The notes below the pieces were generated by a model. The model saw only the letters and a list, made by a program, of their open reading frames with translations. It was not told where the DNA came from and ran no database searches. Made by a program: the position numbers and the translations under genes. From contig JAGVKB010000040.1 in assembly GCA_020050835.1 (NCBI GenBank), forward strand, positions 1 to 64,000: a stretch of 64,000 nt of DNA, written 5' to 3'. The stretch comes from Candidatus Obscuribacterales bacterium (GTDB taxonomy: Bacteria > Cyanobacteriota > Vampirovibrionia > Obscuribacterales > Obscuribacteraceae). Below are positions 12,113-64,000 of this stretch, in pieces (the first letter of the stretch is position 1; every line of letters begins with the position of its first letter).

Positions 12113-12150
12113 TCAGACCGAACACGCGTATCAATTAGTCAATAACTCAG

Positions 12151-12180
12151 AGGCTCTGCTTGGTCACAAGCGGAGCCTTT
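12151..12180 (+). terminator. Intrinsic terminator after the fasciclin gene
   Basis: AGGCTCTGCTTG / CAAGCGGAGCCT form a 12-bp stem with one T-G wobble and a GTCA loop, followed by TTT. It starts 38 bp after the fasciclin stop codon. Confidence 0.85.
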
Positions 12181-12290
12181 GGCAATTCGGGCAGTCAGCC
12201 CGAACTTTCATGCCGCTCTTAGAGCGCCAGCGGCAAGCGAACACTGTGAGAACGGATTGACCGCTTGATTTGATCGGACAAGCGCGTTCT

Positions 12291-12443: not shown

Positions 12444-12447
12444 TCAA

Positions 12448-13599
12448 TTACAAATCAACTGGATCCTGATAGCCAGCCAACTCAACAAAGGCCTCTCCCT
12501 TAACTGTAGCCTGTCCAAACTTACCTTCGACCGTCGAGGCGCCCTCCCAGTAAGTGTCTAAATTGGTAATCAACTCTTGATCTAAAAGAGCCGGTCTTAA
12601 GGTCAACTCGACTTGCGCGATTGGAATCGTAATTTGCCAGCCGCTCGGATAAGTAACTCCACTGGCAGGACTCTTCCAGTCGCCCAACTTTTTTACACTA
12701 AAGTCTTTGGCAGTGAAGAAGCGAGTCGAACCCTTCTTGCCAACAAAGGTACCAGCAGAATTTGAATCAATCGTACCATCCAGATTCCGCAGCACATAGA
12801 GCATCAATTCGGTCCCTTCATCCAATTGAACTGCATACCAATCCCAGCCGACAATGCGTTCTCCCAGCATCTTAGTGCCAAACTCATGATCCATCCAGGA
12901 TAATCCGACAACTGGAACGGTCTGCGTTCCAATCGTAAGCGTTCCCTCCGCTTTCATCCGGCTGAGGGAATAGTAATGAGACGCACAGCCAGCGCAGCTA
13001 GCCTTCCTGCTTACGCCGTCAGCGCCATGAATGACCGGCTCTTTCAATGGTGTCAGAAGAAGGTCCAGCGTGTAAGCGAGATATTTTGCATTCAGATGAT
13101 GTTGATTCCCGACCAGTTCGACCGACCAATCTCCGTTCCACACTTTGTAAGTATCCGACTTCGCGCCGGAGCCGCGCGCGCCTGACGGATCGATTTTCTC
13201 TCGATAAGAGAAGCGCTTTCCATTTAAATCCGAAATGGCAAAATGAGCCACGTATATATTGTTTGAGTCGAGTTTGATGGACGTGTCATCGTCGTCGAGG
13301 GCACGGCGAAAGAAAGTAAGCTCGTAGCCAAATCGGCGTCCGTCTTCAGCAGCCAGGTGTCCGCTGTAATACCACCATTCCGTCTTGAAGTTATTGTGAG
13401 TGGCGTGGTCCTTCGGAAAACTGAACTTATATCCGGGCAACGCTTGTTGAAAGCCACCAGCAAACGCCTGAAGCCCCGGTAATAGAAATGCCAGCAGTAA
13501 GACTACGGCTTGCCAAAATCGCTTGAATTCCAAGTAGTCACGCATGCCCCAGCCAATCGGATTACCCAGCTTCGACAAAGCAATCTCATTTCCACTCAC
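12448..13599 (-). CDS. Secreted CrtC/AttH-like (carotenoid 1,2-hydratase-fold) protein
   Basis: Predicted secreted protein of the COG5621/AttH family, a double lipocalin-like fold shared with hydroxyneurosporene synthase (CrtC). Conserved landmarks are FPKDHATHNNFKTEWWYYSG (about residues 61-80), FGYELTFFR, then SWMDHEFGTKML and VGWDWYAVQLDEGTELMLY in the second half. The hydrophobic leader VVLLLAFLLPGLQAFA (about 32-47) looks like a signal peptide. The GTG at 13599 overlaps the upstream hydrolase stop (GTGA), indicating coupling, but the ATG at 13545 gives a more normal signal-peptide length. The actual substrate is unknown; nothing else here suggests carotenoid synthesis. Confidence 0.87.
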   Translation of the reverse strand: MSGNEIALSKLGNPIGWGMRDYLEFKRFWQAVVLLLAFLLPGLQAFAGGFQQALPGYKFSFPKDHATHNNFKTEWWYYSGHLAAEDGRRFGYELTFFRRALDDDDTSIKLDSNNIYVAHFAISDLNGKRFSYREKIDPSGARGSGAKSDTYKVWNGDWSVELVGNQHHLNAKYLAYTLDLLLTPLKEPVIHGADGVSRKASCAGCASHYYSLSRMKAEGTLTIGTQTVPVVGLSWMDHEFGTKMLGERIVGWDWYAVQLDEGTELMLYVLRNLDGTIDSNSAGTFVGKKGSTRFFTAKDFSVKKLGDWKSPASGVTYPSGWQITIPIAQVELTLRPALLDQELITNLDTYWEGASTVEGKFGQATVKGEAFVELAGYQDPVDL

Positions 13600-47807: not shown

Positions 47808-50249
47808 GTGGAGATCCGCACCAGAACACGTCGAGCGTTAGAGTGGAGCAGCTTGAAGGAATTCCTTGCTGCCGAGGCTTGTACCGCTTGGGGCTATGAG
47901 CGGTGCCTAGATCTGGAGCCAGAATCTGAACCGGCCGTAATTGAAATACTCCTTGACGAAGCAGCAGAAGGTCTAAGCTTGCTTCAAGCCAGGTCTGTAC
48001 TCGCACTCGAAGACTTGCCGGATCTGCGCGAAATCCTGCCTCGCCTGGAAGCTGGAGCCGCACTTTCTGGGGGTGAGCTTCTTGCAATCAAGACAGTCCT
48101 GGTACGCTCACGTAAGTCGAAATCCAGCATCTCCTTGTTAGAACAGACTATCTTTCCTCGCTTGACAGCGCTACTTCCGACTTTGTTTTGCCCGGAAGGT
48201 TTGGTGACAGATATTGATGCAGCCATCTCCCCTGCCGGTGAAGTACGGGACGATGCCAGCCCGCTTTTATCCTCCTTACGTAAGGATATAAAGCGAATTG
48301 AGAATCAGATAAAAGATGAGCTGACAAGAATCATTCACTCATCGACTCTTTCCAAGGCTCTTCAGGAGCCACTCTTCACGCAAAGATCAAATCGCTATGT
48401 ACTGCCGGTTACAGCCAGCCACCGTCATTCGATCGAGGGCATCGTTCACGACAGCTCGGCTTCCGGCTTGACAATTTATGTAGAACCGAAAGCCGTTGTC
48501 GAGATGTCCAACACAGTGCGTCTCAAGGAAGTGGAGATTGAGCGCGAAATACAGCGAATCCTACTTGATTTAAGTAGTAAGGCACGGCTGCATTCCGACG
48601 AGATCTCCAACAGCTTCGAGACGCTCGTAGAGCTTGACTTCATAATGGCCAGAGCACGTCTGGCGGCGAAGTATGGCGGCTTTCGCCCGGAGATTTCGAA
48701 AGAGAATATTCTTCAATTGAAATCGGCTAAGCATCCGTTGCTTATCCTTCAGCATCCGGAGCGTGCATCACAGATAGTACCAAACGATATCACTCTCGGT
48801 GGCAACAACCGCACAATGGTGGTTACCGGTCCTAACACAGGCGGCAAGACCGTCCTTTTGAAGACAGCAGGACTGCTGTCTTTTATGGTGAAATCAGGAC
48901 TTTTGATTCCGGCTGCGCCGGGATCGAAAGCGGTGATTTTTTCAGACATTTTCGCAGACATCGGCGATGAGCAATCTCTCTCTCAGAGCCTATCGACGTT
49001 TTCTTCGCATATGACCAATATCGTCGAAATAATCAATCGCGCAAACGCGCAGACGCTGGTTCTCCTCGATGAAATTGGGGCCGGCACCGATCCACGAGAA
49101 GGAGCGGCATTGGCCAGATCGGTCTTGGAATTCTTGAATGACGCCGGGACCAAAACAATCTCGACCACCCATTACGGTGAACTGAAAACACTGGCCTATA
49201 CACAACCTGGATTCATCAATGCCAGTCTCGACTTCGACGAAACAGCGCTTTCGCCGACCTACCGTCTTCGGACCGGTGTGCCCGGCAGTTCGAAAGCCAC
49301 TACTATCGCCCAGCGACTGGGGCTGAAATCCAGCGTGATTGAAAAGGCCACTCTTTACTTAGACAGCAACGCCAAGGACATTCAGAAGCTTACCGAGGAG
49401 CTGGAAGCCAGATTGAATGCGCTGGCAAAAGAGGAAGAGTCGGCCAAATCCGCAACGCTCTCAGCCGCTGCGCTCGAGGCCAAAGCCCGGGCAGAGCTTG
49501 CTGACTTGGACGCGGAGCGCGAGTTATTGCGCCGGACACTGGCTGGCGAGATAGAAGAAGATTTCAAGCGAGTCCGCGAGCAAATTCGCGCTCTCATAGC
49601 AAACCTCCAGAAGCAGCCCAGTATGCAGACTGTGCAACAGGCTCAAAAGGAGATGGAGAAGATCAAGCAAGATCTCAACTGGCTAAACCCAAAAGAGAGC
49701 GGAAAACAATTTATAAAGGTATCGGTTGGACAGACCGTGCGGATAAAGTCTCTAAATAAGATTGGGCTCGTTGAAGCTGTCCCAGCAGACGACCGGGAAG
49801 GACAACCGGATGGAATGATTTCGGTACGTGCCGGCAACATGAAGGTGAAAGTGCAAGCAGGCGACCTTGAGCTTGTGAGCGATTTTGCCTCCAAGCAAGC
49901 AAGCGACCGCAACGTTGCCCGATCGAAATCGGGTGGAACTCCCTCCAGGTCACCTGGGACAAGACAGACCGAAGTAAGCTCCGGTCCAATCGTCTTCGTT
50001 CGAACCACTTCTAATACTATAGATTTGCGCGGTAAGCGAGTGGATGCAGCTTTAAGCGAGGTTGAACGATTTCTCGACGATGCCTACCTTTCAAGTCGTA
50101 GCCCACTCATGATCATTCACGGGCACGGTACGGGTGCGGTCAAGGCGGTTGTTCGGCAATATCTTTCGGAATCGTCCTATCCGAACACCTTCCGCCCGGG
50201 AGAGCTCTATGAAGGGGGCGATGGAGTGACAGTCGTAGACTTACAATAG
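47808..50249 (+). CDS. mutS2: MutS2, Smr-domain MutS paralogue
   Basis: Endonuclease/ATPase of the MutS2 family, linked to suppression of recombination and to rescue of collided ribosomes. The N-terminal core domains are followed by the ATPase domain with Walker A VTGPNTGGKTVLLKTAG (about residues 338-354), FADIGDEQSLSQSLSTFSSH and Walker B LVLLDEIGAGTDPREGAA. A long coiled coil (about 520-615) and the KOW-like segment follow. The C-terminal Smr nuclease domain (735-813) has TIDLRGKRVDAALSEVE and MIIHGHGTGAVKAVV. All parts are present; 813 residues is normal. GTG start with poor Shine-Dalgarno, 11 bp after the small gene. Confidence 0.97.
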   Translation: MEIRTRTRRALEWSSLKEFLAAEACTAWGYERCLDLEPESEPAVIEILLDEAAEGLSLLQARSVLALEDLPDLREILPRLEAGAALSGGELLAIKTVLVRSRKSKSSISLLEQTIFPRLTALLPTLFCPEGLVTDIDAAISPAGEVRDDASPLLSSLRKDIKRIENQIKDELTRIIHSSTLSKALQEPLFTQRSNRYVLPVTASHRHSIEGIVHDSSASGLTIYVEPKAVVEMSNTVRLKEVEIEREIQRILLDLSSKARLHSDEISNSFETLVELDFIMARARLAAKYGGFRPEISKENILQLKSAKHPLLILQHPERASQIVPNDITLGGNNRTMVVTGPNTGGKTVLLKTAGLLSFMVKSGLLIPAAPGSKAVIFSDIFADIGDEQSLSQSLSTFSSHMTNIVEIINRANAQTLVLLDEIGAGTDPREGAALARSVLEFLNDAGTKTISTTHYGELKTLAYTQPGFINASLDFDETALSPTYRLRTGVPGSSKATTIAQRLGLKSSVIEKATLYLDSNAKDIQKLTEELEARLNALAKEEESAKSATLSAAALEAKARAELADLDAERELLRRTLAGEIEEDFKRVREQIRALIANLQKQPSMQTVQQAQKEMEKIKQDLNWLNPKESGKQFIKVSVGQTVRIKSLNKIGLVEAVPADDREGQPDGMISVRAGNMKVKVQAGDLELVSDFASKQASDRNVARSKSGGTPSRSPGTRQTEVSSGPIVFVRTTSNTIDLRGKRVDAALSEVERFLDDAYLSSRSPLMIIHGHGTGAVKAVVRQYLSESSYPNTFRPGELYEGGDGVTVVDLQ

Positions 50250-50535: not shown

Positions 50536-53500
50536 ATGTCAGGTTTTGATGATTTACGCAATAAGGTTGAGGGTACACCAGTTCAGCCTTCCGGGACGGA
50601 CAACTTAAGGCAGGAGTACTTGACGGTACCGCGCCAACCAGGCACGGACGCGCCAATCCCCCCCGGCCGAATCGCCGCACCCGGCAGCGACCGCCTGCAA
50701 CCAAACAGCATTTACAGCCAGAGTTTTGACAATCCGATTGTCCATCTAAATAACGCTCGGGCCTGGATGAAGACCGAAGGGCTCTACTCCGAGAAAGCAC
50801 AGCGGGAATATCTGGCCGCCATCAGAGCCGCCGACACGATCGATCAACGCGAAGTCGCTCAAGAACGCAAGCGCGTTGCCGATCTGCTCAACACCGAACA
50901 AGATCCAAACAAGCGCCGCCAGCTGGTGCAATGGGACGCAACGCTGCACGACATGCAACGTGCCCCGGGCTTCACCAGAGCGAATCTTGGCATGCAATGG
51001 ATCAGAGCCGGCAAACAAGCCGACGGTATTCGTCTATTAGTGGAAGCTGGCAACAAAGATCCCGAGATGCGGACGGATCCAAACTTCATCAAGCACATGC
51101 GCCTGCTAAACATGCAGGTTCCGACCGACCGCGTTCCTAGCGGTCCGGGCATTGTGCCCACACCAGGCGACGGTCGCCCGGTTGCGCCTACCGATCAAAC
51201 CGGCAAACCGACCGGTGCAGTTCGTCCGGAAGGTAATTTCGACAATCCGATGGTTCACCTCGCTACTGCCAACTCGGCTCTCGAGCAAGGCAGAGTGCTG
51301 ACACCGCAAATTCGTGCCGAATATTTGGCAGCTATCAAAGCGGCCGATCAGATGGATCGCACATACATTCAATCCAGAATGAAGACTCTCGATGAGGAGT
51401 CCAGGAAAACTTTCGATAAGCCGACCGAAGAGCTGATCGTTAAGCTCACGAATGAGAGAGACGCTCTCAAGGCAGCGCTCGAGAAGGAGCATCCCGATAG
51501 CTATAAAAAGCTCGGCGAACTGGATGAAAAATGGAGCAAAGCAAAGACCGACGATGAACGCAACAAAATCGTCGCCGAAATGCGTAAGGTTGAATTCGCC
51601 GGTCCGCTGCTCGACAAGCAGAAAGAATTAGAGACCCAGGAAGCAAATCCCAAGCACACTAAGTTTATCGAGCTGCAGGCAGAGTTCGCGGCGCTTCAGC
51701 AGTTGGACAACTCATCTAGCCTGACGCGCTTTGCCTATGCATTTGCTTTAGCCAATAATGCCAAGCAAGCAGATAGCTTGCTCAACCGCAATCTAACGGA
51801 TCCGCAAAGAGCGGCATTAAATGCGATGGCCGAGCAGCAGAACCTGAACGCGGACCAGAAGACTTTCCTGAAAGGGGTCGCCACTCAGCCAAGCCTGACC
51901 GAAGAACAAAGAACCAAACTCAAAGAGCTGGCCAACGGGCAAAACCTCTCGGCAGAACAAAAGGCCATCCTCAACAAGATGACCGGACAGTTCAATCTGA
52001 CCGACTCTCAAAAGACTCAGCTCCAGCAGGTTGCCGCTCAAGACAGGCAACAGGCAGCCGGTCTGCTCGATCAAATCGTCAAGATCGATCCGGACGCCGC
52101 ATCGGAACGGGCTTTTGTCATGCTCGCCAAAGAAGTCGGCTACAAGATACCCGAAGCTCAAGTCAGCGACAAGGTGAAGGACCAGGCTCCCACAGTCGCC
52201 GATCTGACTAAGACCGGTCATCCGATCAACCTGCTGGAACAAGCGCATGCTACCCAGAAAGAAAAAGACTTCGCGCAAGCCAAGCCAGTCTATCAGCAGG
52301 CAGTAGAGGCTGCCGACAAGCTGGACCCTGAGGCGCTGAAGAAAAAGGTCGACTTTTACAAGTCAGCGGTCAAAGACGAGAATCTCGATGCCGCATCGAG
52401 ACAGCAAGCGCTGCAACTGGCGATGGAATACATTTCGCTGCAGCATTCACCGTTCGTCACTCGCTTCCAATATGCGATTGGGTTGAGTAATGCGGCCATA
52501 GACAAGAAACCAGGCGGCGATGCAGCGCTGGCTAAGCAGCTGCTAGACAAGGCCAAAGAGCTGGATCCAGAAGCAGCTGATTCGGAACTCTACCGATTCG
52601 TCAAGGACAAGTTGGAGAAAGGTCAGAAGATAAGCGACGACGACCTCAAGAAGTTTGCTCCGCAGCAAGCAAGCAATTCAGAAGGTGCTCCAATCTCGAC
52701 TGAGCTGCAACAAGTCAAGGCTTCAATGGACAAGGTCAAGGAAGCCCAAAACAATAAGAACGCGGTAAGTGCTGAAGCTGCCTTCAAAGAAGCGATTGCA
52801 GCCGCCGACAAGATGGACATGGCTCCATACAAACAACAGCTCGAACTCGTCAAGAAACAAGTCGAATCTCTTTCGGGCACCGCCGAAGGTATCACCAAGA
52901 GCGGCGAACTCTTGCAAGTCAAGAAAGCGCTTGAAGCTAGAATTCAGCTACCGGTAGATTTGCGCCTGGAGATGGCGAAGTTTTACATTCAGAATCAGAA
53001 GCCGGATCTGGCCAAGGCGATGCTTGAAGACAAGGAGTTCTTGAAGAACTATCCCGATGCAGCCAAGCGTCCTGACTTCAAGCTAGTGAAGCAATTTGCC
53101 GATGAGTACTGCAAGTCTACGCTTGATAAGGCCATGGAATGGGCCGCGAAAGAAGGCAAAGGACTCGTATCAGACTTCGGCTCAGGCGGCCTGGCTGCGG
53201 CGATCTTCGCCATGAATCCCGAAGCCGCATTTTCAAAACGCCTGCTTCTGGCGGTTGGAGCAGCAGCGCTCGCCAAGCCTGGAATGCAGATGATGATGGG
53301 TGAAAAGGCTACGCTGGGAGACGCTGGCTGGGGAGCCGGCATGGGACTGATGTTCATCGCCGGCGGAGAGGCCAAGAGCCGACTAACCAGTCGCCTGGCT
53401 GCCGGTATCGACGAGACTCTCTTGAAAGAACAGCTGCTGAGGGCTGGTGTCAAAGAATCGCTCATCAAGGACTTCGCGGTTCAGCAAGATCTGCGAAACG

Positions 53501-55863
53501 TAGATGCAATCGGGAGACTCCTCAAGCAACAGTTCGGCGAACAGATCGCTTTGACCGGCGAAAAGGGTCTGAAAGATCAAGCTCTCAAGCTAGGCATCTC
53601 GGAAGCCGCAGTAACACAAGCGCTCGAAGGCAAGACCGGACGGGCGGCAGTTGACGCTTGGGTCAAGTTGCTTGAAGGTCACTCTATCAGCGCTCTGGAC
53701 AATAAAGTCTTGCTCGCTAGCGCTGAGAAGCTGGGGCTCGATGCAGCCGCAATCAAAGAATTTGGTCTGAAGCAAGAAGCGCAACGCGTAGACGTGATCG
53801 CATCAATGCTCAAAGAAAGGCTGGGCGACAAAGTCGACGGCAAGAAGCTGATACCTCACGCCGAAGCGCTCGGCATCGCCAAAGCTGAAGCGACTGCGCT
53901 GGAAGGCAAGACCGGTACAGAAGCCGTAGATGCATTCGCAACACTGCTCAAGCAACGCGCTGAAGCAGGTAGCTTAAACATGTCGCTCCTGACCGAGAAG
54001 GCAAATCTGCTCGGCGTCGACAAGTTCCAGATGACCAAAGCTTTTGCTGCGCAAGAACGGGCATCAATCGATCTCCTGGGCGATCTGCTCAAGAAAGATC
54101 TGACCAAGGTAGATGCTGCCGGACTGGCAACGCACGGTAAAGCGATGGGCATCGCCGAAGCCGAACTGAAGAAACTCGAGGGCAAGTCCGGCGCCGAGCT
54201 AGTCGATACGTTCACTACCATGTTGAAAGCCAAGGCAGAAACCGGGCTGAGCTTGGGTTCAATCAATGAACTCGCCGCCACCATGGGAGTTTCTCAATCC
54301 GCCTTGAGAGATATCGTGTCCAAGCGAAAGATCGAGGTGCTCGGTACTGTCGAGAAACTGCTCGCCCAGAACATCGACGATCAAAGAAGATTGGCAAAGG
54401 AAGCATACGGAGTCGCGACGCAGTACAAGCTCGAAGGACTGGCTGAGGGTAACGGGCAAAAGCTGGCCGCCCACCTGAAAAAGCTGGGAGTGGCAGAAAG
54501 CGATCTGATGCTCAAGCTCGAGCAAATGAGGGGAGCAGAAGCTAGTAAAACAGCCGTAGCTCTGATCAAAGACACGATTGCAACCAGAGAAAAACTCACC
54601 GGCGAAGCGTTGGCGGCGGAGTTAAAGGACAAGCCATGGTTGCAGCGAGTACTCCGGCGCCCGGCCGGCGCCGCTGAAACGAGCGCATATGCGATGGGTA
54701 AGAAAGAGCTTGACGCTCTAAGATCTCAGGTCGAAGCGGGCCGCGTTGAAAGGCTCGGCTCGTGGGCGAAATCCTGGTTGCCCTGGAACAAGGGACAGGA
54801 AGGAACTATCTATCGCGAATACGCCGATCTCTGGGCCAAAGCCGCAACGCTGCAAGGTCGAAGCTTCGGTCCAGTTCCCTGGCAGTACTTGAACCCCAAC
54901 CACATCTTAAACGTCAAGGACGCTGATGGCTGGAGGCTGCTTGTAAACGGGAAACTACCTGGAAAGTTTAGAGACTTCAACGCATTTGGAAGCCTTAACG
55001 ATTTGCATGCTCGTTCGTTCTGGAACAAATACAAAGTAGACTTCGCCACAATCGGTGCGATGTCACTCATGTATCGCGGTGCCTCTAACGGATTGGACGT
55101 AGTCAGACCGAACGAAAAAACCGGCAAGACGATTTCGGTTGGAGACGCGCTCGTAAATACTGGTGTCGGCTCACTTGGAGATGCCACATTGGGCGCCTTC
55201 ATGATGCCGGTGTTCCGCGAAATTGGCGGAGCGTTCACCAGGAGAGGAAGCCTGGCAGAGTCGCTCGCTCCGACCAGAGCGCCCTGGCAACAGATCAAAC
55301 CTGGGGTCTGGTCGAAGCTTACCTTGCCCTATAACTCGGCAAGTTATGTGATCGGAGAGGGCATGGGGTACGTCGGCAATAAGGTCGGACAGTTTGGCGG
55401 CTATTTAGGCGGTCGCGCCTCGCTGTCACCAGAGTTCATCGCTCGCAATCCAGGTTTCGCTAACTTCTATAGTCGCATACCGATGGGACTCAGCACAGTT
55501 CCCGGAAATGCAGCAATATTCAGCCCGCGCTTGCAAGAAGTTCCCGGCACGTGGAGCCTGTACAGCTCGACTGCGGCAATCATAGACGCCAATAATCAGC
55601 CTCTGAAAGATGAGAACAAGCCGGTTGATCCGCTCGATGAGATGGAGATGGAAGTCGATCCGCACGATGTCTACAAGCACAAGCAGATGGAGCTCTTCGA
55701 GATACTGGGGCTGCTGCAGCAACAGCAAGAGAAGGAAGAAGGCGGAGAGGAACAACCAGCGAACCCGCCGGAAGCGCCGGCTCCGAAGCCGGCTCCAGAC
55801 AAAAAGTCTCCGACGCCGCCACCGCCGGTAGAAAATCCTCCCTCCGGAGGAGCCCCGGAGTAA
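50536..55863 (+). CDS. Very large FDNP-module repeat protein, 1775 aa
   Basis: I recognise no known family. Residues 1-60 are polar/disordered. Four helical modules follow, the first two opening FDNPIVHLNNAR (residue 64) and FDNPMVHLATAN (235), the others near 561 (GHPINLLEQAHA) and 717. Each has an AAIRAADTID-like helix and a TRFAYAFALA-like helix, recalling paired TPRs. Five perfect-length 17-residue repeats lie at residues 419-503. A Gly/Ala/Met-rich hydrophobic zone (LAAAIFAMNPEA, GAGMGLMFIAGGEAKSRL) spans ~875-960. Three 92-residue helical repeats begin at residue 1010. A conserved C-terminal domain contains SLMYRGASNGLDVVRPNEK (~1510), and a Pro-rich tail ends it. No signal peptide. Good Shine-Dalgarno (GAGGGAAG). 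Followed by a 14-bp hairpin. Confidence 0.9.
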   Translation: MSGFDDLRNKVEGTPVQPSGTDNLRQEYLTVPRQPGTDAPIPPGRIAAPGSDRLQPNSIYSQSFDNPIVHLNNARAWMKTEGLYSEKAQREYLAAIRAADTIDQREVAQERKRVADLLNTEQDPNKRRQLVQWDATLHDMQRAPGFTRANLGMQWIRAGKQADGIRLLVEAGNKDPEMRTDPNFIKHMRLLNMQVPTDRVPSGPGIVPTPGDGRPVAPTDQTGKPTGAVRPEGNFDNPMVHLATANSALEQGRVLTPQIRAEYLAAIKAADQMDRTYIQSRMKTLDEESRKTFDKPTEELIVKLTNERDALKAALEKEHPDSYKKLGELDEKWSKAKTDDERNKIVAEMRKVEFAGPLLDKQKELETQEANPKHTKFIELQAEFAALQQLDNSSSLTRFAYAFALANNAKQADSLLNRNLTDPQRAALNAMAEQQNLNADQKTFLKGVATQPSLTEEQRTKLKELANGQNLSAEQKAILNKMTGQFNLTDSQKTQLQQVAAQDRQQAAGLLDQIVKIDPDAASERAFVMLAKEVGYKIPEAQVSDKVKDQAPTVADLTKTGHPINLLEQAHATQKEKDFAQAKPVYQQAVEAADKLDPEALKKKVDFYKSAVKDENLDAASRQQALQLAMEYISLQHSPFVTRFQYAIGLSNAAIDKKPGGDAALAKQLLDKAKELDPEAADSELYRFVKDKLEKGQKISDDDLKKFAPQQASNSEGAPISTELQQVKASMDKVKEAQNNKNAVSAEAAFKEAIAAADKMDMAPYKQQLELVKKQVESLSGTAEGITKSGELLQVKKALEARIQLPVDLRLEMAKFYIQNQKPDLAKAMLEDKEFLKNYPDAAKRPDFKLVKQFADEYCKSTLDKAMEWAAKEGKGLVSDFGSGGLAAAIFAMNPEAAFSKRLLLAVGAAALAKPGMQMMMGEKATLGDAGWGAGMGLMFIAGGEAKSRLTSRLAAGIDETLLKEQLLRAGVKESLIKDFAVQQDLRNVDAIGRLLKQQFGEQIALTGEKGLKDQALKLGISEAAVTQALEGKTGRAAVDAWVKLLEGHSISALDNKVLLASAEKLGLDAAAIKEFGLKQEAQRVDVIASMLKERLGDKVDGKKLIPHAEALGIAKAEATALEGKTGTEAVDAFATLLKQRAEAGSLNMSLLTEKANLLGVDKFQMTKAFAAQERASIDLLGDLLKKDLTKVDAAGLATHGKAMGIAEAELKKLEGKSGAELVDTFTTMLKAKAETGLSLGSINELAATMGVSQSALRDIVSKRKIEVLGTVEKLLAQNIDDQRRLAKEAYGVATQYKLEGLAEGNGQKLAAHLKKLGVAESDLMLKLEQMRGAEASKTAVALIKDTIATREKLTGEALAAELKDKPWLQRVLRRPAGAAETSAYAMGKKELDALRSQVEAGRVERLGSWAKSWLPWNKGQEGTIYREYADLWAKAATLQGRSFGPVPWQYLNPNHILNVKDADGWRLLVNGKLPGKFRDFNAFGSLNDLHARSFWNKYKVDFATIGAMSLMYRGASNGLDVVRPNEKTGKTISVGDALVNTGVGSLGDATLGAFMMPVFREIGGAFTRRGSLAESLAPTRAPWQQIKPGVWSKLTLPYNSASYVIGEGMGYVGNKVGQFGGYLGGRASLSPEFIARNPGFANFYSRIPMGLSTVPGNAAIFSPRLQEVPGTWSLYSSTAAIIDANNQPLKDENKPVDPLDEMEMEVDPHDVYKHKQMELFEILGLLQQQQEKEEGGEEQPANPPEAPAPKPAPDKKSPTPPPPVENPPSGGAPE
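51790..52044 (+). repeat. Five tandem 17-residue (51-bp) repeats
   Basis: Consecutive units NLTDPQRAALNAMAEQQ, NLNADQKTFLKGVATQP, SLTEEQRTKLKELANGQ, NLSAEQKAILNKMTGQF and NLTDSQKTQLQQVAAQD, each exactly 17 residues. Consensus (N/S)Lxx-x-Q(K/R)xxLxxx(A/M)xxQ, an amphipathic helix per unit. The DNA has diverged, so protein-level selection keeps the period. Confidence 0.9.
53563..54390 (+). repeat. Three ~92-residue helical repeats
   Basis: Units start at 53563 (KGLKDQALKLGI), 53842 (KKLIPHAEALGI) and 54118 (AGLATHGKAMGI). Each contains LEGK(T/S)GxxxVDxxxxxLK near position 20-37 and a second helix pair ending (R/I)xDxxxxLLK. Unit lengths are 93 and 92 residues for the first two. Confidence 0.85.
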
Positions 55864-55895
55864 TCCGGCTTCCTTTGGACAGTCCAATTCGAATC

Positions 55896-55927
55896 GACGC
55901 ACGAAAGCTGCACAGCTTTCGTGCGTC
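55896..55927 (+). terminator. Strong hairpin after the 1775-aa gene
   Basis: Perfect 14-bp stem GACGCACGAAAGCT/AGCTTTCGTGCGTC with a GCAC loop, 33 bp after the stop codon. It lacks a U-tract but is stable enough to stop or protect the transcript. Confidence 0.75.
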
Positions 55928-56379
55928 AGCTTGTGCGGCTGTTGACCAGCCATCCACTGACAACCACTCCATAGACTGCTATTACTACTAACGTTAATCA
56001 GTCGTTGATGGTTCAATAGGAAGGTGGGCGGCTGCCAGAGCCGCCCCTACAAAACCTCCAGACGCTTCTCCATCTAGTCGTTCTAGTCAATCCACCCATT
56101 CTGGTCCTTCTGGACCCTCTGACCCTTCTGGTCTTCCGAACCATCTGGATCTTCCGGACTTCTCGACCATCTGGACCTTCCAATCCTTCCGACCCTTCAA
56201 CTTCAGTTCCGGCTGGACTTTCAGCGATTAACCTTAGTACTGTCTAAAACTCAACGGCTGCGTATACATTCCTTTACGGCAACACCGACTTACTACGTGA
56301 AAGTACTACTTAAGACCGGTGCCAACCGAAAGTAATCCGGAAAGCGGAACAAGCCCCCACAAATCGAGGAATCAATTCA
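55928..56379. other. 452-bp intergenic region with hairpin and 9-bp-period tract
   Basis: Between the first two large paralogues. It contains an 8-bp hairpin GGGCGGCT-GCCAG-AGCCGCCC at 56026-56046, then a strongly C/T-rich tract from 56100 to about 56220 with a 9-bp period (units like TCTGGTCCT, TCTGGACCC, TCTGACCCT, TCTGGTCTT). No open frame with a start codon covers it. Downstream DNA to 56379 should hold the promoter of the next gene, whose Shine-Dalgarno is GAGGAA. Confidence 0.65.
56100..56220. repeat. Degenerate 9-bp minisatellite, collagen-like on either strand
   Basis: About twelve 9-bp units on the theme TCTGGACCT. Read on the plus strand it gives SGPSGPSDPSG; read on the minus strand it gives short runs such as EGSEGPEGPE and EGLEGPDG in different frames. 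There is no start codon and frames break, so it is either a decayed Gly-x-y-coding segment or a simple DNA minisatellite. Confidence 0.65.
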
Positions 56380-58995
56380 ATGGGCGACACGAGAGTTCAA
56401 GACAAGGCGGAAGATAAGAAGGCACAAGGGCAGGAAGATCCCAGCGCCAATCTTCGCGACAACGCCTACCAGGCGATGAAGGGTGCCGGCAGTGACAGAA
56501 CTGGCAACCAGACCTCAGCCAAACCCAAGTTTGATAATCCCTTCGATCACATAGCCTTAGCTGGAACAGCACTTCGTGAGATTGATAGCTTGAAAGACCT
56601 TCCTGCCAAGGATAAGGTTCAAGTCACTGACAACAAAGGAAATGTTCGAGAAGTCACCGTCGAGCAGCGCCGGGCAGAGCTCTTGAAGGCTGCAGAGCAG
56701 CAATTTTCGGCCGGCATTAATGCAGCCGATCGCATAGACCAAAACAAAGTTTCGCTCACAATTATTACCCTCAAAGAGAAGATCGCCAAAGAGACAAATC
56801 CGGCCGAGAAGAAGAAGCTCGAAGATTATGCTTACGTAGTCGATTCGATGAAACATGCGCCGGGCGTAACTCGCTTTGCTTACGCCAGCTTTCTGGCGGA
56901 CGAAGGGGACTTCGTCAAAGCGAAGAAGTATCTCGATGAAGTGAAAAAAGTCGACGTCGAAGGCAGGCTCGACCCTGTTTTCGTAAAGCTTTCGGAGAGA
57001 GTCGAAAACGAGCTGAAAGCCAGGCAGAACATGATTACCGAAGGCAACAACCCACTTGTTGCCTTGAATTCGGCGAATGAAAAACGCAACGCCGGTGATG
57101 CGGCCGGAGCAGAAGCCGAATACAAGCGGGCAATTGAGCTCGCAGCAAAGGTAGATCCCAAAGTTGTCGAAGCGAATCTCAAGACGATCGAGCAATTGAA
57201 AGCCGCCAACGCTAACAAGCCGGACGCGATCAAAGAGCTCGATCAACAGAAACAAGCCTGGACAGCTATTGCGAATTCAGGATCGATAGCAGCTGTTAAC
57301 TATGCCGACTTCCTGGTTGAAAAGGCTCGATACAAAGAGGCCAAGGAGCTTCTGGTCAGTGTCGGTCACAATAATCCTGACCTGGTCAAAGGGGACAAAC
57401 ATTTTGCCGAACTTCTGCAAAAGGCACGCGACGAAGGCAAAAAGCCGGAGCCGTTCGACAACCCGTTCGTTCACTTGAGTAATGTTCAAGATCTAGCCAA
57501 GAAAGAAGACATGCAAGGCGTCAAGCGAGAGCTTGAGGCAGCGGTGAGAGCTTCCGAAAAGATCGACCGCAAGATGATGCAAGAAAATCGGAAGGTCATT
57601 GAGGAGCAACTTAAGGAAGAAAGAGATCCGGAAAGGAGAAAGAATTTACAGCAGCTGCGCGAAACATATGATCAATTTGATCATGCCTTGGCCTTTACCA
57701 AGACTTGCCTTGCCCGCTTCGAACTCGCCAACAAGAACTACAGTCGGGCCCAACAGCTGCTCGGACAGGTAGAATCATCCGACTGGGCATTCACGCGCAA
57801 ACCGGAGATCAAATTCGACGAGCTGAAAGAAGGCTCGAAAGAGCCGTCCACCTGGGACAAAATCTGGTCCGGTACAAAGACTGTTCTTAAAGAGCTGGTC
57901 TGCGATGGCGTAGCTATCCTTGCCGGAGCCGGTGCTGTTCTTTTGACCGGCTGGTCAGGACCGGCAGCGCTGGTCGCTGGCGGATGCGCAGGCGCCGCGG
58001 CCTACACCGGCATGAAAACTCTTGTTTTCGGCGATAAGTTCTCCTGGGATATGCCGCTCTGGGGCGCCGTCGATGGCGTCACCGGTGGAACTGCCGCGAT
58101 CGCACGAACTGCTTTGTGCAGAGTCGGCGGGCAAATCGTCACGAAAGAAGTGGCTGCGAACATGGCCACCAAGACCGGAGTCGACCTGGCGAAAATTACA
58201 GCCAAGGAAGGCACCATGGCTTACGGCAAAGCGGTTGAGCAACTCGGCAAAGAGGGGCTCAAGCAGCTTGCTAAGAAGGAAAACCTTTCACTCTGGACTC
58301 GCATGACCAGTCATGTTCCATTGACCGGAGCGGTCCTCGGCAACGCCGAATATCGAGCAGGAGTCAATGCGCTGAGGGGAGTAACCGCTCGCAACGTTGC
58401 AGCCAACGCCTTCGTCGACGGTGGTACCGCCCTTGCCGGCTCGATGGTGTACCGCGGAGTGCATGATGGTGTCGACTATAAGAACGGCAAATATCAAAAC
58501 TTTAGCGACTTTGCTTCGAACTACGGCAAACATGTACTATTCGACTCGACCAAGGGTGCAGGCGTAGGAGCATTCTCGACCAGCTTTGGTTATGGCTCGC
58601 TGACATCACTGGGATTGAACGGTGGACGCGAGTACCTTACCGGCGGCAACAAGACATTCGGTGACTGGGCAGGTAAGACCGCTTTCGGCACAATTAACGA
58701 CATGGTATTGGGCACACCCTCTACTTTCCTGCTCCATGGCAGACTTGGCGGAGCGTTAGAACGCTTCCCCGGAACGCATTTCATGAATTCGCTTCAAGGC
58801 GGCTTCATTGCCAGCACTCCCCAGTTTTACCAAGCCTGGGAAGTAAAACAGCAGGCAGATGCTATTGAGAAGGGTTTAGCAGAAATGCAAAAGCAGCCCG
58901 AGACTCAAGACGAGCTGCAACGTAGATACTTCAGTCTTCCTGGTACGGATGAATATCCAACCAAGCCAATCGATGAAGATGAAGAGAAAAAGTAA
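56380..58995 (+). CDS. FDNP-module repeat protein, 871 aa (paralogue of flanking large genes)
   Basis: Same family as the genes at 50536 and 61776; no known family recognised. Polar N-terminus (MGDTRVQ... then LRDNAYQAMKGAG), then three helical modules: FDNPFDHIALAG (residue ~50), NNPLVALNSANE (~223) and FDNPFVHLSNVQ (~360). Each carries an (A/S)A(D/E)(R/K)(I/V)D helix and a later TRFAYASFLA-like helix. Residues ~505-545 form a glycine-zipper hydrophobic stretch (GVAILAGAGAVLLTGWSGPA). Then come FSWDMPLWGAVDGVTGGTAA, a helical region and the conserved C-terminal domain (SMVYRGVHDGVDYKNGKYQN, REYLTGGNKTFGDWAGK). An acidic tail ends it. No signal peptide. Start ATG with GAGGAA upstream. Followed by an 11-bp hairpin at 59102. 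Confidence 0.9.
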   Translation: MGDTRVQDKAEDKKAQGQEDPSANLRDNAYQAMKGAGSDRTGNQTSAKPKFDNPFDHIALAGTALREIDSLKDLPAKDKVQVTDNKGNVREVTVEQRRAELLKAAEQQFSAGINAADRIDQNKVSLTIITLKEKIAKETNPAEKKKLEDYAYVVDSMKHAPGVTRFAYASFLADEGDFVKAKKYLDEVKKVDVEGRLDPVFVKLSERVENELKARQNMITEGNNPLVALNSANEKRNAGDAAGAEAEYKRAIELAAKVDPKVVEANLKTIEQLKAANANKPDAIKELDQQKQAWTAIANSGSIAAVNYADFLVEKARYKEAKELLVSVGHNNPDLVKGDKHFAELLQKARDEGKKPEPFDNPFVHLSNVQDLAKKEDMQGVKRELEAAVRASEKIDRKMMQENRKVIEEQLKEERDPERRKNLQQLRETYDQFDHALAFTKTCLARFELANKNYSRAQQLLGQVESSDWAFTRKPEIKFDELKEGSKEPSTWDKIWSGTKTVLKELVCDGVAILAGAGAVLLTGWSGPAALVAGGCAGAAAYTGMKTLVFGDKFSWDMPLWGAVDGVTGGTAAIARTALCRVGGQIVTKEVAANMATKTGVDLAKITAKEGTMAYGKAVEQLGKEGLKQLAKKENLSLWTRMTSHVPLTGAVLGNAEYRAGVNALRGVTARNVAANAFVDGGTALAGSMVYRGVHDGVDYKNGKYQNFSDFASNYGKHVLFDSTKGAGVGAFSTSFGYGSLTSLGLNGGREYLTGGNKTFGDWAGKTAFGTINDMVLGTPSTFLLHGRLGGALERFPGTHFMNSLQGGFIASTPQFYQAWEVKQQADAIEKGLAEMQKQPETQDELQRRYFSLPGTDEYPTKPIDEDEEKK

Positions 58996-59101
58996 AGACC
59001 AAAACGCTACCAAGCATTACCGCGATACCTTAGTTTTTAGTTAGACTAATCCCCCGGCAATCACCGTAGAACAATGGCAAATCGAAGGTCTGACCGTCCA
59101 T

Positions 59102-59131
59102 CGGCGCAGCTCAAATACCGGAGCTGCGCCG
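59102..59131 (+). terminator. Hairpin between the 871-aa gene and the glycosyltransferase
   Basis: Perfect 11-bp stem CGGCGCAGCTC/GAGCTGCGCCG with an 8-nt loop, 107 bp after the stop codon and 36 bp before the next ATG. No U-tract. It could equally be a leader structure of the glycosyltransferase gene. Confidence 0.6.
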
Positions 59132-59167
59132 GATGCTACTTGATAACAATAGCCTATACTTGAGTAC

Positions 59168-60019
59168 ATGACTGAATTGTCAGTAGTCATTCCCGCTTAT
59201 AACGAAGAGCGCCGCCTGCCGAAGACGCTCGACTCTGTTTATCAATATCTATCCGGTCTCGGAAAGGAATTCGAGATTGTGGTAGTTGATGACGGCAGCC
59301 TCGACACAACCGCCTCGGTGGTAGAAGGTTATGCAGCTACCAGACCACAGATACGATTACTCTCTTACAGCCCAAACAAGGGCAAGGGTCACGCGGTAAG
59401 GGTCGGCATGTTGGCCGCGCGCGGAGAGCTCATCTTGTTTGACGATGCTGATGGCAGCTCGCCGATTCACGAAGAGCGGCTGCTCACTGATGCCATTGCC
59501 GGCGGTTACGACCTAGCAATTGCCTCACGCGCCAAACCAGATGACAACAGAACAGTAAAAGCGCTTCCCTATCGTAAGTATATTGGGAATGCCTTTAATA
59601 TGATCGTTCAGTGCCTCCTGCTTCCAGGTCTGTACGATACGCAATGCGGATTCAAAATATTCAAGCGAGAAGTGGCGCACGACCTGTTTTCGGTCGCACA
59701 CTTGAACGGTTTTGCATTTGACGTTGAAGTGCTCTTCATCGCCAGGCTGCGCGGCTACAAAGTTTCCGAAATTCCAATCAATTGGTCCAACGTCGAAGGC
59801 TCGAAGGTCAACGTTTTGCTGGATTCTCCCAAAATGTTGTTAGAAGTTTTGTGGATAGCCGCCGGAGCATGGTTTGGCCGTTACAGGCAGCTACGCAGCT
59901 CCCTGAGCAGCAGTGCCGGCTCGAACGGCTCATCCATGAGACAATCAGCAGAGAGACTCGACGCCGGACACACACAGTTTCCGACATCACAATCCGGCTC
60001 CAATTCCGACAGAGACTAG
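59168..60019 (+). CDS. Family 2 glycosyltransferase, dolichyl-phosphate glucosyltransferase-like
   Basis: GT-A glycosyltransferase transferring a sugar from a nucleotide sugar, probably onto a polyprenyl phosphate. Motifs: SVVIPAYNEERRLPKTLDSV (N-terminal nucleotide-binding strand), VVVDDGSLDTT, SPNKGKGHAVRVGMLAARGE, the metal-binding LFDDADGSSPI (DxD-type, residues ~97-100), DTQCGFKIFKREV, and EVLFIARLRGYKVSEIPINW. This set matches the ALG5/dolichyl-phosphate beta-glucosyltransferase-like group. There is a weakly hydrophobic C-terminal segment but no clear transmembrane helices. 283 residues. It is followed 14 bp later by a polytopic membrane protein and probably forms a lipid-linked-sugar pair with it. 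Confidence 0.93.
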   Translation: MTELSVVIPAYNEERRLPKTLDSVYQYLSGLGKEFEIVVVDDGSLDTTASVVEGYAATRPQIRLLSYSPNKGKGHAVRVGMLAARGELILFDDADGSSPIHEERLLTDAIAGGYDLAIASRAKPDDNRTVKALPYRKYIGNAFNMIVQCLLLPGLYDTQCGFKIFKREVAHDLFSVAHLNGFAFDVEVLFIARLRGYKVSEIPINWSNVEGSKVNVLLDSPKMLLEVLWIAAGAWFGRYRQLRSSLSSSAGSNGSSMRQSAERLDAGHTQFPTSQSGSNSDRD

Positions 60020-60033
60020 TCAGGCTGAATCCG

Positions 60034-61596
60034 GTGGTTAAACCACGCCTCTATCCATTACCAGACTTCGGAGATGTGATCTTTCTCCTGGTCTTGAATC
60101 TTTTGGTCTTCGCTCTTCCACACTTCATGCTCGGTGATGGTTCCACCGGTTGGCATCTGGTGACCGGACAGTCGATCCTCGAGACGCACCGTGTCCCGAC
60201 TCAAGACATCATATCTTACACATTTCCCGGTGCTCCCTGGGTGGCATATGAATGGCTATTCGATCTCTTTGCAGCGCTGACAGAAAAATTCGCCGGGCTG
60301 AATGGGCTTGTCGTCGCATGTAGTTCGATCATCGCCCTGGTAATGCTACTGGTTTATGAGCGTTGCCGCCGGGTCGGATTGAATTTCCCGATGGCTGCCT
60401 TCCTGGTGATCGTCGGCTCTCTTGCTTCCTCTGTGCACTGGTTGGCGCGACCCCATATTTTCTCCATTCTAGGCGTGTACATATTCGCGACCAGCCTTGA
60501 ATCCTTTCAGCAAGGAAAGCTAAGCAAATGGAAGATGCTTGGAATTTTGAGCGCCTGCACTGCAGTCTGGGTGAATTTGCATCCTGGCTTCTTGCTGGGC
60601 TTTGCGCTGACGATCATTTATTTGGCTTGCGCCCTGGCAACCGGCATCTTGATCAAACGTGATACCGGCGGCGGTGACGCACTGACAAAGGCAAAATGGT
60701 TTGGCGCGACGTTTGTTTCTTTGCTCATTGCCAGCATGGTTAATCCGTACGGAGCACAATTGTTCGGCTATATCGGGCATTATCTGCAAAACAGTGAAGT
60801 GCTTCACGCGACAAATGAATTTGCATCACCGGTTTTCCACGGTCAGGTTCAACAGTCCTGCCTGGAGATCATATTTTTGTTGGTTATCATCGGCTTGGCA
60901 ATGACGGCAAAGAGGCCATCATTGCCCCAGCTCATGTCATGCCTGGCTTTCGGGCATCTGGCGCTGTCCGGCATCAGAAATGCACCGGTGTTTGTGATTG
61001 TCGCCTTGCCTTTCATTGCTGACCTGTTCAGCCAGGTGAGATTGCCGTTTTCAACTGGCATGGCTGAGGCGACTCCGGCTCACTGGCTGGAATCGCTTGG
61101 ACAACGCTTCCGGCGCTTTTGCGAAGGTTTCGACCAGAACGAAGAGGCTTGCCAGATGCATATCCTTCCGGTCGTTGCAGTTGTCGTGCTTATGATTGCC
61201 TCGGCAAATTCCGGTTCGCTATGCGGAGAAAGGATACTGGACTGTACCCCCAGTCCTAGTACGATGCCGACAAAAACGCTGGACTATATTCGAGACAACC
61301 ACCTTGATCCAAAACAAGGATTTAACTATGACAATTGGGGCGGCTACATCCGTTATCGTCTCGGGATACCAGTATTCATCGATGACCGGCTTGATTTTTA
61401 CGGCAAGAACTTCTACTTTGAATACGGCATGATCGTGCAGTTGGAACCGGGTTGGGCGCAACTGCTGGACAAGCACAAGATAGGCTGGATTCTCTTTCCG
61501 AAGAACAATCAGTTATCTAGACAATTGAAAGAGGATCGCCGATGGAAGCTTGTTTGCGAAGATCAGGCAGCAGACCTCTTTGAGCGAGTCAACTGA
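60034..61596 (+). CDS. Polytopic membrane protein, glycosyltransferase-C-like
   Basis: About 520 residues with roughly ten hydrophobic helices (for example FLLVLNLLVFALPHFMLG, AAFLVIVGSLASSVHWLA, FLLGFALTIIYLACALATG). The early loop MLGDGSTGWHLVTGQSIL, with an Asp and a conserved-looking TGWHL, followed by TFPGAPWVAYEWLFDL, resembles the first periplasmic loop of GT-C enzymes (ArnT/PMT style). The C-terminal ~120 residues are soluble (GFNYDNWGGYIRYRLGIPVF, IDDRLDFYGKNF). The start is uncertain. The open frame extends back to 59782 inside the upstream gene, but that part is a shadow; GTG 60034 is the best candidate. Its substrate is probably the lipid-linked sugar made by the preceding gene (inference). 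Confidence 0.82.
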   Translation: MVKPRLYPLPDFGDVIFLLVLNLLVFALPHFMLGDGSTGWHLVTGQSILETHRVPTQDIISYTFPGAPWVAYEWLFDLFAALTEKFAGLNGLVVACSSIIALVMLLVYERCRRVGLNFPMAAFLVIVGSLASSVHWLARPHIFSILGVYIFATSLESFQQGKLSKWKMLGILSACTAVWVNLHPGFLLGFALTIIYLACALATGILIKRDTGGGDALTKAKWFGATFVSLLIASMVNPYGAQLFGYIGHYLQNSEVLHATNEFASPVFHGQVQQSCLEIIFLLVIIGLAMTAKRPSLPQLMSCLAFGHLALSGIRNAPVFVIVALPFIADLFSQVRLPFSTGMAEATPAHWLESLGQRFRRFCEGFDQNEEACQMHILPVVAVVVLMIASANSGSLCGERILDCTPSPSTMPTKTLDYIRDNHLDPKQGFNYDNWGGYIRYRLGIPVFIDDRLDFYGKNFYFEYGMIVQLEPGWAQLLDKHKIGWILFPKNNQLSRQLKEDRRWKLVCEDQAADLFERVN

Positions 61597-61693
61597 ACGA
61601 GAAGTGAAAAGCACGCTTTTGACTCAAATTCCAATCATGTCGAAAAATGCTTGAAGAAGTATAGACATTTGTAGGCACCAATTCCGTACCAAG

Positions 61694-61771
61694 TGGTCTC
61701 CTCACACAGGTCGGGTATTAGCTGAACCCAGGCTGGGACTCAGTTAGCACTTCAATTGCGCGAGGAGACCA
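61694..61771 (+). promoter_or_regulatory. Potential Shine-Dalgarno-sequestering stem before the third paralogue
   Basis: TGGTCTCCTC (61694-61703) is perfectly complementary to GAGGAGACCA (61762-61771), which contains the GAGGAG ribosome-binding site for the ATG at 61776. The 58-nt interior can fold into a second hairpin (CCCA-GGC-TGGG with flanking AGCTGA/TCAGTT, about 61720-61750). In the folded state the start site would be hidden. The other two paralogues show no equivalent. Confidence 0.65.
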
Positions 61772-61775
61772 ACAA

Positions 61776-64000
61776 ATGGGTGATGAAAGACCGCCAGAAT
61801 TTCCGAAATTTCCAGAATTTCCGGCTCTAAGAGATAATCGCGTCCGCAATCACGACAGCCAGCATCTGCGGGATGACGCCTACAAAGCTATGGCACAGGC
61901 GGGCATAGACAAGATCTTCCCGCGCAGCGAGTTAAAACCGAAGTTTGACAATCCGTACAAACACATCGAAAAGGCAACTGAGGCGATTGCGGAGCTGGAA
62001 AGTCTAAAATCCATTCCTTTCGGTCACAGTCTTCAGATCAGGGATGCTCAAGGACGCACACGCGAACTATCGATCGAGCAATACCGTGGACTGCTAGTAC
62101 TTTCAATCGAAAGAGAGTTTCGCTCGGCGATCGATGCAGCAGACCGAATTGAACAAAATAAAGTTTCTGTGTCGGTAATCAACCTTCAAGAAAGAATTGC
62201 AAAGGAGCAAAATCCTGTCGAGCGAAGGCGTCTCGAGTCGTTCGTATTTGTTTTAGACTCGATGAAACACGCATCCAGCGTGACACGAGCCACCTATGCC
62301 AACTTCTTGACTGACCATGGCGAGCTTAGCCGGGCAAAGGATTTGTTAGATGAGGCTTCTGAAATGGATGTCGAAGCAAAGCACAATCCGTGGTTCGTGC
62401 ACTCCTTGGAAAAGCTGACTAACGAGCTGAAAGTTCGTCAGAATACGATTGCTGACGATAAGAATCCTTTGATCGCACTGGAAGCAGCATCGGAAAAGCG
62501 CAAGGCAGGAGACGCCAGTGGAGCAGAGTCTGAGTTCAAGAGAGCTGTCGAGTTGGCAAAGACGGTTGATCCTAAGGTCGTCGAGGAAAACCTTAAAAGA
62601 CTCGACAAGCTTAAGTCTGAGATTTCTTGGAATCCAGCCGCCACAAAAGAGTTGGACTTGCAGAAACAAGCCTGGATCGCCATGGCCAATGCCGGTTCGA
62701 TTGCAGCAGTCTCGTACGCCGACTTTCTGGTGGAAAAGGGCCGTTACAAGGAAGCACTCCCTCTTTTGGTGAGTGTTGGTCATAACAATCCAGAGTTGGT
62801 CAAAGGAGACAAAACCTTCCAGGAGCTCTTGCAGAAGGCTCGCAATGGAGGTAAAGAGCCAGAGCCTTTCGACAATCCCTTCGTACACTTAAGCAACATC
62901 CAAGGTCTGGCGGACAAGGAAGATATGCAGGGGGTACGCAAGGAGCTAGAAGCTGCGATCAAAGCCGCCGACAAAATCGACCGGCAAAAGATGCAAGACA
63001 ATAAGCGGGTGGTGCTGGAGCAGCTCAATGAAGAAAAGGATCCCGAGCATAGAAGCAACCTCCGAGCCTTGCACGAGGCATACGATCAGTTCGATCATTC
63101 TTCTGCGTTTACAAGGATCTGCCTGGCCCGCTTCGAAATCGCCAACAGAAACTACGAGCGAGCGCAGGCGCTGCTGGCTGAAGTGGAATCGTCAGATCCT
63201 AACTTTTCACGCAGACCGGAGCTCAAATTCGATGAACTCAAAGAAGCATCGCAAGAACCGTCTACATTGTCTCGCATCTGGTCGGCAACTACTTCCTTTC
63301 TAAAAGAATTGGCTTGCGATGGAGTGGCGATAGCAGTTGGCGCCGGCGCTGCTCTTTTGACCGGCTGGACCGGACCAGGAGCAGTAGCAGTGGGCGGAGC
63401 AGCTGGCGCAACTGCTTATACCGGCATGAAAACGCTGGTTTTCGGCGAGAAATTTTCCTGGGATATGCCGCTCTGGGGAGCGGTAGATGGTATTACCGGT
63501 GGCACCGCGGCGCTGGCCAGGACGGCGCTGGCTCGAGTCGGCGGGCAAATAGTCACCAAGGAAGTCGCGGCCAACCTCGCCTGCAAGACTGGAGTCGAGT
63601 TAGCCAAGATTACCGCAAAAGAAGGGACCATGGCCTACGGCAAAGCGGTCGCGCAGTTAGGCAGGGAGGGACTCAAAGAGCTGGCGAAGCGAGAGAATCT
63701 ATCGCTCTGGAGCCGCATGACTAGTAGAATTCCACTGACCGGCGCGTTTCTAGGCAATGATCAATATCGTGCCGCCCTAAATGCCGTCCGAGGCGTTACG
63801 GCTCGTAATGTGGCGACGCATGCTCTGGTTGATGGCGGCACAGCCTTTGCCGGGTCGTTGGTGTATCGTGGTGCGCATGGACTGGCCGACTACCACAACG
63901 GCAAATACCAGGACTTCGGCGACTTCCTTTCGAACTACGGCAGGTCTGTTGCATTTGATACGACAAAGGGTGCAGGAATTGGTGCATTCGCCACCAGTTT
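61776..64000 (+). CDS. FDNP-module repeat protein, third paralogue (3' end outside window)
   Basis: The frame opens at ATG 61776 (GAGGAG Shine-Dalgarno) and stays open for 741 codons to the window edge. It aligns along its length with the 871-aa protein: LRDDAYKAMAQAG near the N-terminus, modules FDNPYKHIEKAT (61935), KNPLIALEAASE (62460) and FDNPFVHLSNIQ (62868). Then come hydrophobic GVAIAVGAGAALLTGWTGPG, FSWDMPLWGAVDGITGGTAA, the long ITAKEGTMAYGKAVAQLG helix region and the C-terminal domain start (SLVYRGAHGLADYHNGKYQD). A distinct N-terminal tripeptide repeat, EFPKFPEFP, replaces the polar leader of its sister. No signal peptide. Nucleotide similarity is high around the hydrophobic stretch, indicating a tandem duplication. 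Confidence 0.92.
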   Translation, partial: MGDERPPEFPKFPEFPALRDNRVRNHDSQHLRDDAYKAMAQAGIDKIFPRSELKPKFDNPYKHIEKATEAIAELESLKSIPFGHSLQIRDAQGRTRELSIEQYRGLLVLSIEREFRSAIDAADRIEQNKVSVSVINLQERIAKEQNPVERRRLESFVFVLDSMKHASSVTRATYANFLTDHGELSRAKDLLDEASEMDVEAKHNPWFVHSLEKLTNELKVRQNTIADDKNPLIALEAASEKRKAGDASGAESEFKRAVELAKTVDPKVVEENLKRLDKLKSEISWNPAATKELDLQKQAWIAMANAGSIAAVSYADFLVEKGRYKEALPLLVSVGHNNPELVKGDKTFQELLQKARNGGKEPEPFDNPFVHLSNIQGLADKEDMQGVRKELEAAIKAADKIDRQKMQDNKRVVLEQLNEEKDPEHRSNLRALHEAYDQFDHSSAFTRICLARFEIANRNYERAQALLAEVESSDPNFSRRPELKFDELKEASQEPSTLSRIWSATTSFLKELACDGVAIAVGAGAALLTGWTGPGAVAVGGAAGATAYTGMKTLVFGEKFSWDMPLWGAVDGITGGTAALARTALARVGGQIVTKEVAANLACKTGVELAKITAKEGTMAYGKAVAQLGREGLKELAKRENLSLWSRMTSRIPLTGAFLGNDQYRAALNAVRGVTARNVATHALVDGGTAFAGSLVYRGAHGLADYHNGKYQDFGDFLSNYGRSVAFDTTKGAGIGAFATS

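Follow-up and report, generated by a model that had tools for sequence, protein, structure and literature searches.

A TPR-like family of giant proteins encoded beside a glycosyltransferase gene in the bacterial order Obscuribacterales

The window, that is, the whole stretch of DNA analysed, comprises 64,000 nucleotides (contig JAGVKB010000040.1, positions 1 to 64,000, assembly GCA_020050835.1) of a Candidatus Obscuribacterales bacterium, a non-photosynthetic, uncultured cyanobacterial relative (Cyanobacteriota; Vampirovibrionia; Obscuribacterales; Obscuribacteraceae). It carries three plus-strand genes for giant proteins, P1, P2 and P3, of 1775, 871 and 872 amino acids (aa). A first-pass annotation of the DNA had proposed a common modular plan for the three, with three or four modules in each N-terminal part. 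Both proposals are borne out: the open reading frames lie where they had been placed, P3 could be completed to 872 aa, and a profile of the module counts four, three and three copies. Based on the results below, we conclude that the family is real, conserved and order-specific, and that it is unnamed in the libraries used, yet of tetratricopeptide repeat (TPR) kind. The three genes and their parts, including a hydrophobic C-terminal core (C-core), are as follows.

50536..55863, plus strand: P1, 1775 aa, with four TPR-like modules, a split hydrophobic C-core, an inserted helical repeat array and a Pro-rich tail
50725..51120, plus strand: P1 module 1, FDNPIVHL, residues 64-195, the most conserved module within the P1 family
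51238..52149, plus strand: P1 module 2, FDNPMVHL, residues 235-538, enlarged by insertions
52216..52632, plus strand: P1 module 3, GHPINLL variant, residues 561-699
52696..53115, plus strand: P1 module 4, without FDNP, residues 721-860
53119..53418, plus strand: P1 C-core part one, Gly/Ala-rich helices, residues 862-961 (5.7e-11 to a compact paralogue on C75)
53569..54405, plus strand: P1 tandem array within the C-core, six helical repeats of ~46 aa, residues 1012-1290
54952..55389, plus strand: P1 C-core part two, containing YRGASNG, residues 1473-1618
56380..58995, plus strand: P2, 871 aa, with three modules and a hydrophobic C-core
56530..57021, plus strand: P2 module 1, FDNPFDHI, residues 51-214
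57046..57438, plus strand: P2 module 2, NNPLVAL, residues 223-353
57454..57843, plus strand: P2 module 3, FDNPFVHL, residues 359-488, the module modelled (pLDDT 94.8)
57895..58014, plus strand: P2 conserved Gly/Ala-rich hydrophobic hairpin, LTGWSGPAA..., residues 506-545
58447..58467, plus strand: YRGVHDG motif of the P2 C-core
61776..64000, plus strand: P3, 872-aa paralogue of P2, with 741 aa inside the window and running on to contig position 64394

The module profile was built from the ten modules of the window (four in P1 and three each in P2 and P3). It recovers all ten (independent E-values 2.5e-50 to 5.4e-32, 104-164 bits each), which is far beyond chance, and places those of P3 at residues 57-220, 229-359 and 365-494. 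Beyond the window, it detects 100 further domains in 67 proteins, encoded at 46 loci of relatives or paralogues; some of these loci overlap on one gene. The N-terminal modules of P1 and P2 are shared, with a profile-profile E-value of 2.9e-9. Nine modules have the proposed length of 130-170 aa, whereas the second of P1 reaches 304 aa through its insertions. The FDNP opening, originally regarded as the signature, is found literally in six of the ten and is replaced by NNP in P2 module 2, KNP in P3 module 2 and GHP in P1 module 3, while P1 module 4 has no counterpart. Outside the window, 27 domains span the motif, 11 of them with F/YDNP and 22 with the proline. The TR position, occupied by R or K in 76 of 98 outside domains, and the A or G at the YA position are better kept than FDNP; consequently, FDNP does not define the module. 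The distance from FDNP to TR varies, and the constant spacing expected in homologues is thus kept only in part; taken as a unit, the module is nevertheless conserved. No paper on an "FDNP motif" was found in the literature.

Single modules were also seen in other proteins. Two adjacent giants on C73 (L008:3729-6989, 1086 aa, and 7138-13197, 2019 aa) carry a single N-terminal module, a hydrophobic segment and hydrophobic C-terminal ends; the larger one also has long coiled-coil-like stretches. On C20, a protein (L159:1-1587) combines one module with a weak thioredoxin-like domain and with a repeat tail rich in Gly, Asn and Pro; a signal peptide was not seen in it.

The paired helices had been read as TPR-like scaffolds, and several analyses agree with this. 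P3 passes the Pfam cut-offs of TPR_19 (29.5 bits, cut-off 25) and TPR_14 (28.7 bits, cut-off 23.5), a PDB profile search with the module matched designed TPR/PPR proteins and a kinesin-light-chain TPR-like design, and AlphaFold2, with the ten window modules as its only input, folded the module into six helices forming three antiparallel hairpins (predicted local distance difference test, pLDDT, 94.8; predicted TM-score, pTM, 0.85). P1 and P2 remain below the Pfam TPR cut-offs; homologues match TPR_14, TPR_19 and TPR_2, with at most 5 of 11 sequences matched by any one model. For the P2 family as a whole, the PDB profile search gave zero matches. Using Foldseek, the isolated module retrieved no PDB chain at E < 0.001, and the best TM-score (~0.41) was to 14-3-3 and not to a TPR protein; 14-3-3 proteins belong to the alpha-alpha superhelix fold class. 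The full P2 model retrieved mostly TPR proteins.

The unit of ~130 aa has a longer central hairpin and does not form a regular array of 34-residue repeats, and we therefore restrict the claim to "TPR-like". Many accepted TPR-like proteins likewise lack repeat regularity. The module is a member of the TPR superfamily, with which it shares antiparallel helix pairs carrying TPR residues; it differs in its six-helix unit with an Asn-Pro entry, which is unnamed in the libraries used, and in having no close solved structure. In Pfam, NCBIfam, PHROGs and PADLOC, the giants match TPR models only and have no family model of their own. Thus, the proposal of a distinct repeat family without a recognised domain is right about the missing model, but it has to give way in part to an existing repeat family, the TPR superfamily.

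Behind the modules, the Gly/Ala-rich hydrophobic zone of the first-pass annotation is real: in P2 it covers residues 506-545, and it is conserved across 49 homologues, over which the mean Kyte-Doolittle value is ~1.6. The label "glycine zipper" was tried for it and dropped, since the proteins of the window hold no excess of GxxxG relative to shuffled sequences (z 0.5 and -0.3); pooled homologues, which are non-independent, gave z 3.9. The YRGxxxG motif assigned to the domain that follows is present in P1 (YRGASNG) and P2 (YRGVHDG), but P3 reads YRGAHGL. Elsewhere in the source genome, whose paralogues were counted by profile searches, a compact paralogue (C75, L158:8542-9933, 463 aa) consists of one module and an unbroken C-core. 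Two stretches of P1, residues 862-961 and 1493-1563, correspond to this C-core (5.7e-11 and 6.3e-10) and lie ~530 residues apart; P1 therefore looks like the compact-paralogue domain with an insert. P2 and P3 are matched weakly in the same region. The insert, absent from the first-pass annotation, holds the six tandem repeats of ~46 aa in two alternating types (LG[IVL]...LEGKTG..AVDA..LLK), and its Pfam matches are weak and sub-threshold only. With a profile of the P1 core, L037, a protein of P2 type, is found at 7.8e-5, against 0.15 for the best of the shuffled and reversed controls, while a direct profile-profile comparison between the C-cores, P1 against P2, gives no significant match (0.018-0.024). 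From these sequence comparisons, the two C-cores may be akin, their likeness being moderate.

P3 is a recent duplicate of P2. The two are 64-65% identical and flank, one copy on each side, a glycosyltransferase gene and a membrane protein gene. Nonsynonymous divergence (dN) between them is 0.27 and synonymous divergence (dS) is saturated, a pattern suggestive of purifying selection.

With a threshold of E <= 1e-6, members of the P2 family turned up in 38 of the 50 genomes from the source organism's own family and in 3/3 from a sister family in the order, but in 0/329 genomes elsewhere in the class, and the P2 family is absent from the rest of the 386-genome phylum sample. The suspected lineage specificity thus holds at the level of the order in the genomes sampled. 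Three P2-negative genomes (G011, G008 and G015) have a giant at the same place that still matches the P1, P2 or module profile. In genus g22, the locus holds one giant of ~1360-1450 aa, with a weak module-profile match in one genome and none in two. A second paired-gene locus was observed in two genomes (L127:5432-15449 and L128:3942-13832), where P2-type genes alternate with a Gly-rich partner of ~690 aa without Pfam match.

The giants are accompanied by three genes, and the linkage to a glycosyltransferase had likewise gone unnoticed in the first-pass annotation.

47808..50249, plus strand: MutS2, the syntenic left neighbour
59168..60019, plus strand: GT2 glycosyltransferase (PF00535), polyprenyl-phosphate-sugar synthase-like
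60034..61596, plus strand: polytopic membrane protein with seven hydrophobic segments (hydropathy), GT-C-like by context only

For the membrane protein, the listed start at 59782 over-extends into the GT2 gene, and the lengths of homologues point to a GTG near 60034 as the start. The recurrent gene order is MutS2, P1, P2, GT2, often the membrane protein, then IMPase and IleS; the gene after GT2 codes for a membrane protein or a YfhO-like protein in part of the loci. In 34 of 40 GT2 loci, the gene directly upstream of GT2, within ~220 bp, is a giant on the same strand, and P1 directly precedes P2 even in blocks inverted relative to MutS2 (L044/L125, L126, L032). GT2 shows similarity to PgfS and to sugar transferases of the undecaprenyl- or dolichyl-phosphate type, with scores far short of the equivalog cut-offs. 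Rfam gave zero matches in the giant-gene region. Promoter-like sites number 14 against 5.7 in shuffles; the majority are intragenic, and no reading is placed on them. Further to the left in the window are a minus-strand gene for an HtrA/trypsin-like protease that lacks an obvious signal peptide and has a hydrophobic C-terminus rich in Gly and Ala (44795-46375), and a plus-strand gene for a 2430-aa protein with a marginal match to a filamentous-haemagglutinin-type repeat (28677-35969; 18.6 bits, cut-off 18).

The first-pass annotation had suggested an intracellular or unconventionally exported apparatus. Neither P1 nor P2 has a signal peptide-like or N-terminal hydrophobic segment. The contractile sheath (PF04984) is found in 0/50 genomes of the family, VirB4 (PF03135) in 2/50 and not in the source genome, and WXG100 (PF06013) is likewise absent from the source genome. 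An exported apparatus is therefore unsupported by these markers.

Our preferred reading, held tentatively and a little short of an even chance, is that P1 and P2, together with P3, are paralogues of the alpha-alpha superhelix class and may form a membrane-associated TPR-like scaffold pair co-expressed with polyprenyl-phosphate-sugar glycosylation. Given the missing export signal and the hydrophobic C-core, the simplest arrangement would be cytoplasmic modules and a C-core in or on the inner membrane, probably inserted as a hairpin instead of fully spanning it. Peptides or partner proteins are the usual ligands of tandem TPR-like arrays, and the modules could accordingly bind partner proteins or one another. 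P1 and P2 would function jointly and may organise an assembly bound to the membrane; the enzyme co-expressed with it would be the polyprenyl-phosphate sugar transferase with its polytopic partner. That this assembly serves surface glycosylation is the least certain step; the fuller picture of an order-specific, membrane-seated scaffold organising polyprenyl-phosphate-dependent surface glycosylation by means of a fast-evolving giant pair with an unnamed module and core is doubtful. LapB/YciM are membrane-associated TPR scaffolds tied to an envelope-building pathway. P3 would resemble them in scaffold type and shows a weak, sub-threshold match to LapB (12.6 bits, equivalog cut-off 474), but the giants differ in lacking an N-terminal anchor, in their size and in their C-terminal hydrophobic core.

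Several observations weigh against the membrane scaffold. The C-core is modelled with pLDDT < 50 (in a full P2 model built from three sequences), and its hydrophobicity is moderate. In three genomes, the giants lie in the opposite orientation to MutS2, with GT2 adjoining on the other strand in two, and the P2 homologue of the sister family lies beside neither GT2 nor MutS2. Two reduced g3 genomes (L184, L186) keep GT2 and the membrane protein, as well as a small upstream gene, without giants and without MutS2 at the locus; the glycosyltransferase thus does not need the giants. Furthermore, P1 and P2 are 18-48% identical between genera compared to 55-78% for GT2, and the giant proteins drift fast.

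Alternatively, P1 and P2 could themselves be O-glycosylated surface substrates of the adjacent GT2 and membrane-protein system. In Streptococcus mutans, the adhesin Cnm is glycosylated by pgf genes, and cnm-pgfS-pgfM1 are co-transcribed (PMC5856776). The succession of a giant, GT2 and a polytopic membrane protein along one strand parallels this system (cnm-pgfS-pgfM1-pgfE-pgfM2; PMC5856776), PgfS is the best NCBIfam match of GT2, the YfhO-like neighbour found in one genus-level group weakly matches PgfM1/PgfM2, and several P1 proteins have P/T/S- or Q/P-rich linkers and tails (Pro/Thr/Gln-rich in the substrate role) that might accept sugars. Nevertheless, GT2 reaches 72.1 bits against a PgfS cut-off of 500, no epimerase directly adjoins, GT2 is retained where the giants are gone, and a dedicated non-Sec exporter was not found among the sheath, VirB4 and WXG100 markers searched. 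We consider a substrate role unlikely and, since the giants lack an export signal, prefer the scaffold. A cytoplasmic or organelle-coat scaffold, with a purely positional proximity to GT2, is a somewhat better but still doubtful candidate. MamA-type coats use TPR arrays as a membrane-surface scaffold on magnetosomes. The missing signal peptide, the self-assembly potential of TPR-like arrays and the inversion or absence of the giants relative to GT2 in some genomes would fit such a coat, as does the fusion of a single module to unrelated C-termini in other giants, which marks the module as a generic binding domain. However, the tight co-directional packing with GT2 in most loci is hard to attribute to position alone; the likeness to MamA is one by description, and no magnetosome genes were seen in the window, where no search was aimed at organelle genes.

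That the giants are exported effectors or resemble polymorphic toxins, with the Gly/Ala-rich zone helping them across a target membrane, is very improbable. Large size, modular build and Gly/Ala-rich hydrophobic helices would suit such a role, but the giants have no toxin-type match in Pfam, PADLOC or PHROGs, the secretion markers are missing as described, and their constant place next to MutS2 and GT2 throughout the family points to a core gene. More improbable still is a chance likeness of unrelated, ordinary TPR proteins. TPR sequences converge readily; yet the bit scores of the single modules, the shared longer-than-TPR unit, the likeness of the C-cores and the fixed neighbourhood all speak against it, and it is excluded for P2 and P3 by 65% identity and unlikely for P1.

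The finding concerns conserved proteins of a little-studied order which no protein-family library used here names, and no paper tying Melainabacteria to these TPR proteins was found. Since its model is of high confidence, the module is directly testable. Keeping a constant locus beside MutS2 and the glycosyltransferase despite fast sequence drift, the giants are candidates for a lineage-defining envelope or cell-organisation structure.

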